DNA from: a virus
IMG/VR virus record: IMGVR_UViG_3300020404_002135
Span: 1 to 57,288 of that record
Strand: one strand, 5' to 3'
DNA length: 57,288 nt
Shown: in pieces, positions 44,495 to 56,539 of the stretch
Layout: every line of letters begins with the position of its first letter
Position numbering within the stretch: position 1 is the first letter of the stretch
Position numbers and translations under genes: made by a program
The notes under the pieces: generated by a model
Seen by the model: the letters and a program-made list of their open reading frames with translations, nothing else
Database searches by the model: none
Told to the model about the DNA's origin: nothing

Positions 44495-44623
44495 TTGGAG
44501 GACAAAAAAGCAGCCAAAAAGATTATCAAACTGGCAAAAAAACATCCTGAGTGGTATAGTGATAAGGATGTTTATTATGCTAAAATGATCAAAAAGAAAC
44601 TTAAGAAAAAGAAAAATGACTAA
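44495..44623 (+). CDS. Lys-rich micro-protein with TTG start
   Basis: 42 residues, TTG start with AGAGGA at 44482-44487. Half the residues are Lys; YSDKDVYYAKMIKKKLKKKK ends it. It overlaps the ho1 ATG by 8 bases, so it may act as a leader that couples translation into ho1. No family recognised. Confidence 0.55.
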   Translation: MEDKKAAKKIIKLAKKHPEWYSDKDVYYAKMIKKKLKKKKND

Positions 44624-45296
44624 TTTTGCAAAACAACTTAAGGAAGGAACAAAGAAGTCTCATTCAGCAGCAGAGAACACTTCTTTTGTTAGATCCTTCC
44701 TGCGTGGAGTTGTGAGTCCAGATAACTATAAATGTTTAGTTTCGGATCTCTACTTTGTTTATAAGGCATTAGAGGAGCAGGTGTATGGGTTAAGATCTCA
44801 TCCTGTCGTAGGTAGTTTATATTTTCCAGAGTTAGAGAGAGTATTATCATTAGAGAAAGATCTAAATTATTATTATGGTTCTGAGTGGAGAACAAAGATA
44901 GAACCAAGTGAAGCATGTAAGAGATATGTTGCAAGAATACGTGAAGTCGCAGAAGATGAACCAGAATTACTAGTAGGACATCATTATACAAGATACTTGG
45001 GAGATTTGTCAGGAGGACAAATACTGAAGGGAATTGCAAAAAAAGCAATGAACTTGAATGAAGAAGGTCTTTATTTTTATGATTTTGAAAAAATTAAAGA
45101 TGCTAAGATTTATAAAGAAAAGTATCGCTCTGTATTAGACACGTTACCACTTACAGAATCTGAAAAAAATGCCATCATTACAGAAGCAAATTATGCTTTT
45201 AGATTGAATATGTATATGTTTGAGGAGTTGGAAGGTAACGCAGCTAAATCATTCTTCCAAATAATTATGGGAGTTATTTTTGGAGTCAAAAAATGA
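44616..45296 (+). CDS. ho1: Heme oxygenase
   Basis: 226 residues, normal size. KSHSAAENT near the start contains the proximal His that binds heme iron; HHYTRYLGDLSGGQILKGIAKKA at about 127-149 is the distal helix with the Gly-rich flexible DLSGG. It opens heme to biliverdin, CO and iron, the first step to phycobilins. Cyanophage ho1 is established in several marine phages. With cpeT in the same region it supports bilin metabolism in the infected cell. The C-terminus is hydrophobic (FQIIMGVIFGV). Confidence 0.93.
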   Translation: MTNFAKQLKEGTKKSHSAAENTSFVRSFLRGVVSPDNYKCLVSDLYFVYKALEEQVYGLRSHPVVGSLYFPELERVLSLEKDLNYYYGSEWRTKIEPSEACKRYVARIREVAEDEPELLVGHHYTRYLGDLSGGQILKGIAKKAMNLNEEGLYFYDFEKIKDAKIYKEKYRSVLDTLPLTESEKNAIITEANYAFRLNMYMFEELEGNAAKSFFQIIMGVIFGVKK

Positions 45297-46237: not shown

Positions 46238-46465
46238 ATGAAAACTATTGAAGACCACATCCAAAAGGACAAGGATATTCTTGCCGATCCAAACACTTCT
46301 GAACCAATGCGACATCATATAGAAGATGAGTTGCACGATTTAGAAGAGTATGTTGAACATCATAAAGATGAGATCGAAGCAGGAGATCATCATGATCCAA
46401 ATGTACTAGAAGTATTCTGCGATGTCCACCCAGACGAACCAGAGTGTCTAGTATACGATGACTGA
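46238..46465 (+). CDS. cp12: CP12, Calvin-cycle inhibitor
   Basis: 75 residues. The C-terminus VLEVFCDVHPDEPECLVYDD matches the CP12 signature: two Cys nine residues apart and the ending YDD that binds GAPDH. The N-terminal Cys pair of plant CP12 is absent; the rest is an acidic helical hairpin. CP12 locks GAPDH and phosphoribulokinase, cutting Calvin-cycle flux so that light energy goes to NADPH and nucleotide synthesis. This is an established cyanophage auxiliary gene. Confidence 0.92.
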   Translation: MKTIEDHIQKDKDILADPNTSEPMRHHIEDELHDLEEYVEHHKDEIEAGDHHDPNVLEVFCDVHPDEPECLVYDD

Positions 46466-46727
46466 TGAACCGAATACCTCTGAAGATGCGGTAAAATCTA
46501 ACAAACTTTTTAGTAGAAAGACTTATTTAAAACAATTTGAACCACCAACAGTTGATAAAGAATTAAATGGTGGGCAATCTCTTGCAAAAAATGTTAAGAA
46601 TGAATCCTCTACGTTTGTTAAAAAAGAGAGCACCAATCTGAGAAAGACCAAACCAAAAGAAATTGAGTGGGCACCTGTAGAATATACTAAAAGCACCACA
46701 AGAATGAGAAGATCTAAGACAGATTAG
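46458..46727 (+). CDS. Basic disordered protein, unknown
   Basis: 89 residues, overlaps cp12 by 8 bases. Rich in Lys, Thr and Ser with no predicted core; ends TRMRRSKTD. Likely a nucleic-acid- or protein-binding flexible peptide. It is followed by a terminator, closing the cp12 unit. Confidence 0.65.
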   Translation: MTDEPNTSEDAVKSNKLFSRKTYLKQFEPPTVDKELNGGQSLAKNVKNESSTFVKKESTNLRKTKPKEIEWAPVEYTKSTTRMRRSKTD

Positions 46728-46739
46728 AAAGTGTCACAA

Positions 46740-46761
46740 CCCCCTTTACAGGGGGTTTTTT
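46740..46761 (+). terminator. Rho-independent terminator
   Basis: CCCCC (46740-46744), loop TTTACA (46745-46750), GGGGG (46751-46755), then six T. It ends the cp12 unit; the loop doubles as the -35 of the next promoter. Confidence 0.88.
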
Positions 46762-46772
46762 AATGCTATAAT
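46745..46772 (+). promoter_or_regulatory. Sigma70 promoter with -35 in the terminator loop
   Basis: TTTACA (46745-46750, 5 of 6), 16 bases, TATAAT (46767-46772) preceded by TGC (extended). It drives the structured leader and the helicase-methyltransferase gene. Confidence 0.75.
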
Positions 46773-46778
46773 ATATGC

Positions 46779-46888
46779 AGGGAAACAGAACCAATGGTTT
46801 CGACCCACATACAGTGGAATAAGTCGAGTAATCTGGGCAAACCGCCCCATTCGGTTTTTGTTTCTCGCACCCAATTTACTAGGAGACA
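46779..46888 (+). ncRNA. Structured 5' leader with attenuator-like hairpins
   Basis: About 110 bases between the promoter and the gene at 46889. A bulged hairpin pairs TCGAC (46800-46804) with GTCGA (46823-46827) and CCAC (46805-46808) with GTGG (46814-46817), bulging AATAA. Next, GGGC (46835-46838) can pair with GCCC (46844-46847), or instead AAACCG (46839-46844) with CGGTTT (46852-46857) followed by T-rich TTG TTT, a terminator-like form; the two share bases and exclude each other. GGAGA before the ATG is the ribosome site. A riboswitch or attenuator is likely; no ligand is known. Confidence 0.6.
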
Positions 46889-49800
46889 ATGAACATTTAC
46901 CTTGACGGATTTAAAGGTAATCCGTCCGCTTTTGGTTTAGGAGAAACCATACACACATATGAAGATAGACATAAAGGTGGAGACTATGGTAAATCAAAAC
47001 AAGATTTGGCAGCAGTTGGTAGTGCAAGAATAAAGAGAGGATGGTGGACAGATTTTGATGGTAGAGATCATGAAATACATGCATGGTTAAAGATACAACG
47101 TGGTATTACACAAACTGGTAGAGAGACTTATAAAATTGAAGAAGGTCATGGTCTAAGTATTGATGTTGTTAAGGATCTTATTGAAGAGAAATTCTTCTCA
47201 AATAATGTTGAGATAAAAGAATATCGTAACCTTCGCAAACATCAAAAAGAATTTGTATCTGAGATAACTTCAACATGGAATGAGTGGAATGAATACTTGT
47301 TATTTGCTAAGTGTCGTGCAGGTAAATCTACAATGGTTCTTTCATCTATTGTAGAGAATAATGTTAAAGTATCCTTAGTTGTTTCATATAGAAATTCTCC
47401 CAAACAATCATGGAGAGATGATTCGCAACAGTTTCAAAACTTTGATAATATTGTATTCATTGATATTCGCGATGGGGAAGTGGATCAGTTTAAAACTGAG
47501 ATAGAATATTGGATGGAAACTGACAAACAAATAGTTTTATATTCAACTATTCAAGCTCCCAACAGATATAAGAATCTACCATGTAATATTGATTTGATAG
47601 TATTTGATGAAGCACATCTTGGATATCAGGGAGATCAATGGATAACTCTTAAAAATTATTTTGATACAAAAGTATTATATGTCTCAGGAACTGCACATAA
47701 AATCTTAGAAGATTTTCCTAGATTCAGATTTGTATATTCTTACTTTGAAGAACAATTATATAAATTGCAGAACATAGAGGGATATAAAGATTCCCCACAG
47801 ATGAGATTAATTCTTGCAAAGTATGAGTCCAATGAATACCAAGATTTATATGGTGATGATCCTGATGCAATGGGTAATATTTTTAGAGTAAACAAAGATG
47901 AAAATGATTTTGCTGAACCAATATTAGTTGATGAGTTTATGAGTAAAGTTTTTACTCAAGATGGAATAAAGTATAACAAAAGAATACTAAAGAATTGTAG
48001 ACATATAATGATAACTCTACCCTCTATGGCATCATGTCATGCATTTGTAGATTACTTTAAATCAACAAGATTCAAACCATTAGTTGTAACTTCAGATACT
48101 AAAGAAAATTCTGATACAATCAGATCACATATTAGTGCAAATACATCTACAGTTATCTTAACTAAAACTGCAAATGTTCTTGGTTTAACTGCGGAGGGTA
48201 TTGATACTGTTATGAATTGTGCAGAGGGATCATCAAGAGAACAATGGACACAGTTTGCTTTTCGTGGTGGATCAACAAAGAGAAATTCTTGGGATGTAAT
48301 TGATTTTTGTCCAGAACGTTGTTTCACTACAATCAGAAACATGTATTTTACTGCATGTGATTTGAACCATGAACTAACAGAATCTGAATATGAACTTCTT
48401 GATTTAGTCCCTATCTTTGAATACTTCTCTGATTTTGAGGAAGTAACACCAGAACGTTTAAATGAAATTTTATCTAATGATGTGGACAGTGCAATATCTT
48501 TAATATCAGGTATTGTATCTCAGTTAGATTTTCTTAAGTTAGGAGACATTGAATTTGATAATTTCCAGAAGAGTGCGAAGTTATCTTCATGGAGTTCCTT
48601 TACAGTAAATGAGAACAATGCTAACGCAAAGAGTAATAAGAAACTTACCAGTTCATCTAAATTTTCTACACACTATGATAAATCTGAGATAGCACAGAAA
48701 ACAGAGACTATTCAAGCATACATGGAGAGAATAGGATTAGTTATCTTTCACATGATAAAGAATAAATCCACACCCAAAAGTGTAGATAGTATTCTTAATT
48801 CAAAATACTATGAAAATGATACAGGAGATACTACTGGTATTATTAAAGCTTGTTTAGAACAAAAGATTATACCTAAGACATGGATCAATAGAATTAATCA
48901 AGGTATTATAGATATTGAATACTCCATGTCTAAAGATGAATGTGGAACTTTGCAAAAACTTGCAACTACTAGAAAGAATCAAAAGACACTTTCATTAGAT
49001 ATTCTTGATAGAATAATACCTACAAAAACAAAACCCACAGATAAACTAAAAATTGATGGGGATCCATCTGGACTCCATTCTTTATATGCAATAGAGAATA
49101 AATCTTGGGAACCTAATGACATTACTGTCTGGGAGAACGATCCTACACATCGCTATGCAATCACGCAAATTGATGCTAAAATAAATGTAACTGACGACCC
49201 TTTTAATTACAATATGAAATTTAGTGCGACAGTTGGTAATCCACCATATACAGATACATCTACAGTAACAGGTGCAACCACAGGTGGATGTGCAAAAACT
49301 TTAGATACACATTTCTATCTAAGTGCAATGGAGAGATCTGATTATGTATCGGAAGTAATTAGATCAAAACACTTTGCTAAGTCTACATCAAAGTTTAGAA
49401 GAACTTTGTTTTCAACATCAGGTGTTGTTTCTATTGAATCATTATCTCCTGATACATTCCCTTCCATATCAATGACAGAAACATGTATCTGCACATGGAA
49501 ACGTGGATATACTGGATTGACAAAATTAACTTATCTTGATGGTACAGTAAAAGATATCCAACTAACTCCTGATACTTGCATTAGATTCACTAATCCAGAT
49601 TTTGTTTCAGATGTTCCCAATAATATGGGACACCGCTATCAACGTGGAGACTTAAATTTAAATCAGTTGATCAAGGGAGAGTATCCTATGATAACTACAA
49701 TGGGTGGTAAAAATGGAGAAATGCAAATTACTAAAGTTGATAAGTCTCAGTATACTTGTTGTGTTAATCAACATGGAGTTGTAATGAATAGTAAGTATGG

Positions 49801-50008
49801 TGGACAAGGTTTTGGACAAATTCGTATCAAACCATACGATCATGCTATCAGTGGATCTACAGTTATTATAAAAACATCTTCGGAAGAAGAGAGTAATAAA
49901 CTTGCAGATTATTTGAGATCTGATGAAGTGCATCAAATGGTTTTAAAGAATAGAATAGTTAATACTAACTCAAAAGAATTATTCAGAACTATTCCTGATA
50001 TTTTATGA
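46889..50008 (+). CDS. Helicase fused to the C-terminal half of an adenine methyltransferase (R-M-like)
   Basis: 1039 residues. Residues 115-270 are an SF2 helicase front half: KHQKEF, Walker A-like AKCRAGKST at 140-148, VFDEAH at 238-243 and SGTAH at 266-270; VLTKTANVLG and REQWTQFAFRGG (about 427-460) fit helicase motifs V and VI. Residues 776-790 (KFSATVGNPPYTD, NPPY at 784-787) are motif IV of a gamma-class N6-adenine methyltransferase, and the rest resembles a target-recognition region, but motifs X, I, II and III are missing; they lie in the next gene. Residues 1-105 (ETIHTYEDRH, RDHEIHAWLKI, ETYKI) vaguely resemble T5orf172-type GIY-YIG nucleases. The layout resembles Type ISP or IIG restriction enzymes. 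Confidence 0.75.
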   Translation: MNIYLDGFKGNPSAFGLGETIHTYEDRHKGGDYGKSKQDLAAVGSARIKRGWWTDFDGRDHEIHAWLKIQRGITQTGRETYKIEEGHGLSIDVVKDLIEEKFFSNNVEIKEYRNLRKHQKEFVSEITSTWNEWNEYLLFAKCRAGKSTMVLSSIVENNVKVSLVVSYRNSPKQSWRDDSQQFQNFDNIVFIDIRDGEVDQFKTEIEYWMETDKQIVLYSTIQAPNRYKNLPCNIDLIVFDEAHLGYQGDQWITLKNYFDTKVLYVSGTAHKILEDFPRFRFVYSYFEEQLYKLQNIEGYKDSPQMRLILAKYESNEYQDLYGDDPDAMGNIFRVNKDENDFAEPILVDEFMSKVFTQDGIKYNKRILKNCRHIMITLPSMASCHAFVDYFKSTRFKPLVVTSDTKENSDTIRSHISANTSTVILTKTANVLGLTAEGIDTVMNCAEGSSREQWTQFAFRGGSTKRNSWDVIDFCPERCFTTIRNMYFTACDLNHELTESEYELLDLVPIFEYFSDFEEVTPERLNEILSNDVDSAISLISGIVSQLDFLKLGDIEFDNFQKSAKLSSWSSFTVNENNANAKSNKKLTSSSKFSTHYDKSEIAQKTETIQAYMERIGLVIFHMIKNKSTPKSVDSILNSKYYENDTGDTTGIIKACLEQKIIPKTWINRINQGIIDIEYSMSKDECGTLQKLATTRKNQKTLSLDILDRIIPTKTKPTDKLKIDGDPSGLHSLYAIENKSWEPNDITVWENDPTHRYAITQIDAKINVTDDPFNYNMKFSATVGNPPYTDTSTVTGATTGGCAKTLDTHFYLSAMERSDYVSEVIRSKHFAKSTSKFRRTLFSTSGVVSIESLSPDTFPSISMTETCICTWKRGYTGLTKLTYLDGTVKDIQLTPDTCIRFTNPDFVSDVPNNMGHRYQRGDLNLNQLIKGEYPMITTMGGKNGEMQITKVDKSQYTCCVNQHGVVMNSKYGGQGFGQIRIKPYDHAISGSTVIIKTSSEEESNKLADYLRSDEVHQMVLKNRIVNTNSKELFRTIPDIL

Positions 50009-50409
50009 AAAGAAACGATCATAATAAAAATGTAGGATCTGTAATTGAAAGATCAGATGATAGGATAAATGCTACGAGCGAAGTGTTTACACCTATGGAA
50101 GTTTGTGATAGAATGATAGATAGTATACCAGAGGAGATGAAGGTAAATCCTAACTCTAAATTTCTAGATAATTCAGCAGGTAGTGGTAATTTTTTAGTAA
50201 CTCTAAAGAATAAATTACTTCAATATCATGATGAAGATCATATATTAAATAATATGCTATATGCAGTGGAACTTATGGAGGATAATCATCTTGAATTGTG
50301 TAAAAGATTAGGTGTTGAACCTGATCATCCGCATTATGTTTGTCATGATGCATTAACTTATGATTATAGTTTTGGAGAACCAGTTGGATTAGAGGCATTT
50401 TATGAGTGA
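50005..50409 (+). CDS. N-terminal (SAM-binding) half of an adenine methyltransferase
   Basis: 134 residues, ATGA overlap with the preceding gene. It carries motif X FTP (28-30), motif I DNSAGSGNFL (55-64), motif II YAVELMEDNHLELC (86-99) and motif III CHDALTYDYSF (113-123), then stops where motif IV NPPY should follow; that part is in the upstream protein. Together they make one full gamma-class N6-adenine methyltransferase, split at the motif III-IV boundary and with the pieces in reverse gene order. The stop is a true TGA, and the next ATG overlaps it by 8 bases. Confidence 0.8.
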   Translation: MKRNDHNKNVGSVIERSDDRINATSEVFTPMEVCDRMIDSIPEEMKVNPNSKFLDNSAGSGNFLVTLKNKLLQYHDEDHILNNMLYAVELMEDNHLELCKRLGVEPDHPHYVCHDALTYDYSFGEPVGLEAFYE

Positions 50410-55559: not shown

Positions 55560-55931
55560 ATGGCAGAAGAGGAATACATTCCAGAAGTCAATGACTATGT
55601 AATCTGGACAAATGATCTTGGGACAATCGATAAAGGATGGGTTTACTGGAAAGGTGAACCTGTCGATAATGAAAAAAGAAAGAAGTTTGGGTGGAGACCA
55701 CTTCAGAACTATATTACCATTGAAACTGGTATACGAGATAAACCTGATTGTGAGTATGACAAAAACAACCCACACAAACACATTCATATTTTAGTCTGTT
55801 GCTATGAACATCAATGGCATCAACTTCAGTTTGTCAAGAAACGCAAGAGTAAGCATGACCAACAAATTGTACAAGAGTCCACTCATATGTACTATAACGA
55901 ACCAAAAGAGAATCATAGCAGAGAGTCATGA
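55560..55931 (+). CDS. Cyanophage conserved protein, unknown
   Basis: 123 residues. IPEVNDYVIWTNDLG with KGWVYW suggests a small beta barrel, then ITIETGIRDKPDCEYDKNNPHKHIHILVCCYEHQWHQLQFVKKR, a His/Cys-rich stretch (about 72-105) I associate with a recurring cyanophage protein. Possible metal binding. It overlaps the next oxygenase by 4 bases. Confidence 0.65.
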   Translation: MAEEEYIPEVNDYVIWTNDLGTIDKGWVYWKGEPVDNEKRKKFGWRPLQNYITIETGIRDKPDCEYDKNNPHKHIHILVCCYEHQWHQLQFVKKRKSKHDQQIVQESTHMYYNEPKENHSRES

Positions 55932-56539
55932 GACATACGATATTTCCTGTATCATATTATCAAGGACAACTTGAGAATAATGAAAGGTTGAAGCAGGACT
56001 TGCTACCTTTTATTAATTCGACCAAGAGAACGTTGACTCCACCAGAAGGATGGTTGACCACAAAAATTACGACGAGTCATGAAAGAGACGACATTAATCG
56101 GTTTTTCATGTCTCAAACAGAACTACAGAGACAGTATCATAATTTAATTAAAACTTTCTTCGATAACAAGTTTGAAGTGGAGGTGGACGAATGTTGGTAT
56201 AATTGTTATGAGGATGAAGAATATCAGGAGTCGCACAATCATATTGGCGATCCTTTAGATCCAAATCATTTTGCATGTGTTCATTTTCTATGTTATGATA
56301 AGAAGGTGCATAGTCCATTAACCTTTACGGATCCGATGGGCATCATTCGATCTCATTCATTAGAGTTCGATTCGCACAACTATGAGGAAATCTTCTCTCC
56401 TGACATTAATGAGGGAGATTTGATTATGTTTCCTTCATATCTGATGCATGAGGTTAAGGCAAATAAACCTACGCCTGGCAATCCACGTATCTCAATCGCA
56501 TTTAACTTTGCAGTTACTTCTTACAATTCAGTTCGATAA
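55928..56539 (+). CDS. Fe(II)/2OG-type oxygenase
   Basis: 203 residues. CWYNCYEDEEYQESHNHIGDPL (HxH), FTDPMG, GDLIMFPSYLMHEV (distal His) and PRISIAFNFA (Arg) show the double-stranded beta-helix oxygenase fold of the TIGR02466-like type. It overlaps its neighbours by 4 and 1 bases. Confidence 0.8.
   Translation: MRHTIFPVSYYQGQLENNERLKQDLLPFINSTKRTLTPPEGWLTTKITTSHERDDINRFFMSQTELQRQYHNLIKTFFDNKFEVEVDECWYNCYEDEEYQESHNHIGDPLDPNHFACVHFLCYDKKVHSPLTFTDPMGIIRSHSLEFDSHNYEEIFSPDINEGDLIMFPSYLMHEVKANKPTPGNPRISIAFNFAVTSYNSVR

Follow-up and report, generated by a model that had tools for sequence, protein, structure and literature searches.

The sequence analysed, IMGVR_UViG_3300020404_002135, is a viral stretch of 57,288 nt, here called the window. 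A leader element was recognized on its plus strand at 46780-46872, between the genes for CP12 (46238-46465) and heme oxygenase (44616-45296), which lie immediately upstream, and an operon whose first gene encodes a 1039-aa helicase-methyltransferase. This gene is directly followed by one for a 134-aa protein resembling an N6-methyltransferase fragment (50005-50409). The features of the region are listed below; type A is one of the interior types, or heads, of the element family described later.

46732-46738 (+): TGTCACA, the right half of the GTGACAGTT...TGTCACA motif, degenerate in the window and seen also upstream of homologues
46738-46757 (+): intrinsic terminator of the upstream operon, an 8-bp stem with a T run after it, overlapping the -35 box
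46745-46772 (+): sigma70-type promoter TTTACA-16-TATAAT with TG ahead of the -10 box; 11 of 12 consensus matches
46780-46796 (+): 5' strand of the closing stem, the chassis GGGAAACAGA (46780-46789) plus an extension; from fold and covariation
46799-46828 (+): P4 hairpin of the type-A head, its apical part being the insert site in other type-A heads; from the fold and from two-sided changes in three of four pairs
46828-46834 (+): junction GTAATCT, conserved, GTAATYT in most type-A heads; from the type-A alignment
46835-46847 (+): P5 hairpin GGGC/GCCC of the type-A head; from fold and covariation
46839-46857 (+): terminator-like hairpin AAACCG/CGGTTT, neither conserved nor favoured; from fold and type-A comparison
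46848-46866 (+): 3' strand of the closing stem, including TTTTTGTTTCTC, the origin of the "T run"; from fold and covariation
46867-46872 (+): tail GCACCC, conserved and single-stranded (GCAYCC; CCAYC or TCGYC on other chassis); from the 5'-anchored scan, unbiased by the 3' end
46881-46885 (+): AGGAG, Shine-Dalgarno-like, unpaired; from sequence and fold
46889-50008 (+): gene for the helicase-methyltransferase (ResIII; weak Eco57I)

The inverted motif GTGACAGTT...AGTGTCACA recurs before the -35 box, at 46720-46738 in the window and upstream of the loci L324-L398, with or without the RNA element. It is possibly an operator or a terminator remnant of cyanophage early promoters.

The first G of the leader lies 7 nt past the -10 box of TTTACA-16-TATAAT, and the transcription start is therefore predicted at 46779/46780. 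A sequence-only reading of this DNA had proposed a structured leader and named a start downstream of 46857 as incompatible with it; the promoter predicts the start at about 46780 instead. The segment 46780-46867 has a folding energy of -31.7 kcal/mol (z = -3.9), which none of 200 shuffles equalled, and the proposed structured 5' leader is thus upheld. The closing stem consists of 11 bp between 46780-46790 and 46856-46866, with an extension between 46791-46796 and 46848-46854, and encloses a three-way junction with the hairpins P4 and P5. Based on the fold and the promoter spacing, with the start being a predicted one, the 5' end of the leader is base-paired, with few unpaired nucleotides ahead of the stem. 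The bulged hairpin noticed earlier is present, with TCGAC (46800-46804) paired to GTCGA (46823-46827) and CCAC/GTGG inside. The two ends of the leader had also been said to pair, and they do; however, GTTTCTC is located one base later than was given, at 46860-46866, and the stem is longer than the 7 bp proposed.

BLAST against phages detected a related leader in P-TIM68 and the exact 23-nt 3' end in S-SSM7. IMG/VR was then scanned with the 3' end and, independently, with the promoter plus the 5' end, which gave 133 elements, with one false hit removed. Homologues are found in about 130 marine phage contigs, plus isolates including P-TIM68 and S-SSM7, and have the closing stem and the GCAYCC tail in common. 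Although the 5'-anchored scan presupposes no 3' strand, TTTTGTTTCTCGCAYCC is seen in the true cyanophage elements that extend to this strand. Among 88 distinct upstream sequences, 87 contain a -10 hexamer with 5 or 6 of 6 matches to TATAAT, against 3.7% of random positions, and the box mostly lies 7 nt ahead of the first G of the element. The ATG usually follows the element and its tail by 12-22 nt, and a Shine-Dalgarno-like motif no more than 16 nt from the start codon was observed in only 18 of 132 elements. The same family precedes many unrelated genes, and the suggested tie to a "toxic-looking" gene is therefore abandoned.

Among isolates, P-TIM68, S-SSM7, P-SSM2, P-SSM4, P-RSM4, and P-SSM5 carry one chassis each, with additional pattern matches in P-SSM2, P-SSM4, and P-SSM5, while P-HM2 has a lone reverse-strand pattern hit. 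Large contigs contain one element each, and none of the contigs in the set carries a second. Several closed leaders per genome are not favoured: when the complete P-TIM68 genome and the window were scanned, each revealed one credible leader, and the rest were near the level of shuffled controls. A second TTTTGTTTTCTC in P-TIM68 was rejected as an element, being near a gene start and having no promoter-proximal closing strand. Homologous genes without the element exist (L322, L323). In P-TIM68, the element leads about 19 kb of co-directional genes (154.2-173.6 kb; L407:5348-24750), many of them for sugar and glycosyl metabolism, and no clear intergenic terminator was found among them until L407:24753. 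A host origin was also considered and rejected; a scan of bacterial genomes yielded 61 matches to the 17-mer, approximately the number expected by chance according to our own estimate, and none had the structure of the element. Judging from the sequences, the element at 46780-46872 is likely to be a cis-acting 5'-leader RNA whose family is, as far as seen, confined to marine cyanophages.

The interiors enclosed by the closing stem can be divided into at least seven unrelated types, designated as A, B, C, D, E, F, and G. Three of them are characterized as follows.

Head A: found in the window and P-TIM68; three-way junction
Head B: NGGC...TAAGTCCN
Head C: plain hairpins, several with UUCG/UACG-type loops; the short forms are 5'-terminal hairpins only

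The heads are exchangeable. One gene family (MSTRARIG..., phrog_1987) bears heads A, B, C, D, E, and F, and the window's own gene has heads A, B, and C in different phages. At this gene, a head swap in situ is seen between L318 and L321, which are 97% identical upstream, 12% in the interior, and 97% downstream. Conversely, a single head type is also found before different genes, and three different chassis stems carry the type-A head. Related heads are also seen standing alone or nested in other domains, as in P-SSM2 and P-SSM5.

Several further arrangements of such domains were observed. One intergenic region of P-SSM2 (55818-56123; L408:1340-1645) includes three tandem structured RNA domains, namely a closed-stem leader, a stand-alone type-B head in the middle, and a GAGGAGATGGATGTGCCTC...AACTAACATCC domain, with no Rfam match; the last domain also precedes the homologue of the window's gene in L320. 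In P-SSM5 (L411:1460-1720; filed under the species of P-SSM2), the first domain holds a type-B head nested in its apical region. In P-HM2 (L413:1410-1585), GTGTGGCA...GTAAGACCACAC closes a type-F-like head, and a second domain after it resembles the head of L342 and L409. A submodule ACATCCA-N-TGG-TTAGGA recurs across head types (L003, L082, L093, L113, L361, L366, and L380), and this recurrence suggests a common 3D motif. MSTR-type genes in L327, L330, L347, L373, and L396 are preceded by further long structured leaders (GAGGGCAGAG...CTGAAAGCGGAGATCCGCC...), for which Rfam has no match.

Covariation among homologous leaders had been named as the check on the structured leader, and homologous leaders do covary. 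The type-A alignment includes 10 distinct sequences and was built by hand, with the apical inserts of P4 trimmed by hand. RNAalifold recovers the three-way junction from these 10 sequences, and 98.4% of cells are paired in the structure, compared with 47-60% in slid versions. In this hand-built, trimmed alignment, six pairs show two-sided changes, and compensation is seen in P1, P2, P4, and P5. The variants of P4 are TCGAC/GTCGA, TTGAC/GTCAA, TCAAC/GTTGA, and TCATC/GATGA. The closing stem is compensated likewise, as in GGGAAACAAA/TTTGTTTCTC, GAGAAAC/GTTTCTC, GGGAAAACAAA/TTTGTTTTCTC, and GGGGAAACAAA/TTTGTTTCCTC, and in P-RSM4 as GTCGAAACAAA/TTTGTTTCGAC, while the inner stem AAACAAA/TTTGTTT is near-invariant. 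Two 127-nt type-B heads (L039 and L266) differ by a change from A-U to U-A at a stem end. Unpaired nucleotides are also conserved: GTAATYT between P4 and P5 in type A, and GTAAGTCC in type B. G-U pairs are used, and thus the selected structure is RNA. MITE-like mobile DNA with terminal repeats was rejected for the same reason, and because the place of the element is fixed at +1.

At the gathering threshold, Rfam 15 has no family matching the window or any of the elements in the related loci that were scanned, and the relaxed E-value gave nothing convincing in the leaders of the window, P-SSM2, or P-HM2. This covers the wcaG and glutamine motifs, with which the sequence-only reading had proposed a comparison. 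The search itself works, since manA was recovered in P-TIM68 (L001) and PhotoRC-II in L010. The ends GGGAAAC...GTTTCTC look like an acceptor, and ARAGORN finds no tRNA or tmRNA. The manA (RF01745), wcaG (RF01761), and PhotoRC-II (RF01717) RNAs and the glnA riboswitch are also 5'-UTR RNAs of T4-like cyanophages, but they have other genes and structures, and their covariance models have no match in the window or the type representatives scanned. The leaders of Escherichia coli ompA and papA and of T7 gene 10 likewise begin with a stem from the very first nucleotide and leave the ribosome site open downstream; these are single plain hairpins of one gene, whereas the cyanophage family has a conserved stem, exchangeable heads, and a conserved tail. 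The put element of HK022 and the EAR element are similarly placed, as RNAs close to where the transcript of a phage or a long operon begins, and Rfam gave no match. The CfrI RNA of S-PM2, which is antisense to psbA (PMC9602691), is likewise a cyanophage RNA, but its position and sequence are unrelated to the leader. Open-access papers on cyanophage RNAs (PMC2864571, PMC9602691, PMC9964418) name only CfrI, PhotoRC-II, wcaG, manA, and glnA. The structured leader is real, and its family appears to be undescribed in the open-access literature.

What the leader does is a separate question, and the account preferred here, to which we give close to an even chance, is that it may act as a 5'-terminal structural cap, shielding the 5' end of the mRNA from RNase E- and RNase J-dependent decay while keeping the ribosome site open. 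The constant closing stem, in which the first ~11 nt of the transcript pair with a TTTTGTTTCTC strand, would bury the 5' end once ~87 nt have been transcribed. The 5'-sensing RNase E and the 5'-3' exonuclease RNase J would then be unable to start at this end, while the ribosome-binding site would be left single-stranded. One early, probably long, transcript per genome would be favoured in expression, and the heads would be alternative closures of the stem or carriers of extra activity. Plain tetraloop hairpins and large heads interchange at the same genes, and thus a common function is placed in the stem and tail; the cap account fits this replacement of complex heads by simple hairpins. It also agrees with the fold score (z = -3.9) and with the presence of one chassis with different heads in more than 130 loci. 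RppH and RNase E require a 5' end that is single-stranded, and mRNA is stabilised by 5' hairpins (PMC3997798). Cyanobacteria possess RNase E and RNase J, of which RNase J degrades RNAs without a 5' triphosphate (PMC10989914); against the cap, this source lists no known RppH homologue in that group. The cyanophage P-SSP7 raises host RNase E (PMC9692554). The homologous genes without the element also count against the cap. The inner stem AAACAAA/TTTGTTT, the tail GCAYCC, and the elaborate conserved heads suggest, from their sequences, a specific binding partner rather than a pure stabiliser. A general stabiliser is expected at many promoters, and finding about one copy per genome is at odds with this; it is the strongest reason for keeping other explanations.

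The switch proposed by the sequence-only reading, in which AAACCG/CGGTTT with its T run stops transcription and GGGC/GCCC prevents the stop, is extremely improbable. GGGC (46835-46838) with GCCC (46844-46847) and AAACCG (46839-46844) with CGGTTT (46852-46857) are both present and mutually exclusive, as had been noticed, and the site is listed by a pattern scan; however, the terminator hairpin alone reaches only -3.7 kcal/mol with a pair probability of ~1e-4, and the best fold containing it lies 5.5 kcal/mol above the optimum. With successive 3' truncations, the closed three-way junction forms progressively from 46856 on, and the terminator never forms. Its core is not conserved: the two innermost G-C pairs are found in one of the ten distinct type-A leaders, that of the window, and not in the other nine. 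Nearly all elements with other head types have no comparable hairpin before the T run (most none, the best -3.9 kcal/mol), and the T run itself is the 3' strand of the closing stem, kept in all elements regardless of the preceding sequence. The heads could instead sense a ligand or a protein in a riboswitch-like manner, tuning the first gene through the closing stem, as would suit their covarying helices, the conserved unpaired nucleotides in types A and B, and the recurrence of the same head on different chassis, stand-alone or nested (P-SSM2, P-SSM5). This is judged unlikely; one ligand cannot explain why six or seven unrelated heads, plain hairpins among them, interchange before the same gene, no alternative structure hiding the ribosome site was found, and there is no Rfam match.

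The position at +1, the single copy per genome, the sequence-specific stem and tail, and the long run of genes without a clear terminator in P-TIM68 are consistent with a put-like processive antiterminator, whose nascent RNA would stay on RNA polymerase and drive a long early operon. We regard it as quite unlikely: there are few downstream terminators to overcome, cyanobacteria are without Rho (PMC13289151), and head swapping is unexpected if the polymerase reads the fold. Another candidate is a trans-acting small RNA processed from the mRNA, serving as a decoy, anti-defence, or competition RNA with the head as its specificity. The variability of the heads, the sporadic occurrence among phages, the differing downstream genes, and a copy number of about one per genome would accord with it, but the element has no terminator at its 3' end, a constant short spacing to the start codon, and no sign of a processing site, and the chance of this reading is likewise low. 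The scarcity of Shine-Dalgarno-like motifs (18 of 132), with the ATG mostly 12-22 nt past the tail, could mean that the stem and GCAYCC recruit the ribosome or S1 to mRNAs lacking such a motif. However, mRNAs of this kind are common in cyanobacteria anyway, the copy in the window has a Shine-Dalgarno sequence, and a role in translation is highly unlikely.

A broader view of the heads can be offered tentatively, and remains doubtful: exchangeable, nestable RNA heads, pooled among cyanophages, may move as units between a few conserved docking stems at +1 of one key early transcript per genome, and a conflict with host nucleases or defence would probably drive this cassette-like shuffling on a common RNA chassis.

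With this finding, abundant marine viruses gain a well-supported RNA family that Rfam lacks, and copies are available in the growable isolates P-TIM68, S-SSM7, P-SSM2, P-SSM4, and P-RSM4. The in-situ head swaps are natural experiments, in which the same gene and promoter carry a 121-nt or a 37-nt element. Two questions become directly testable with them: how cyanophage mRNA survives in a host in which infection increases RNase E, and whether RNA domains are traded as modules.
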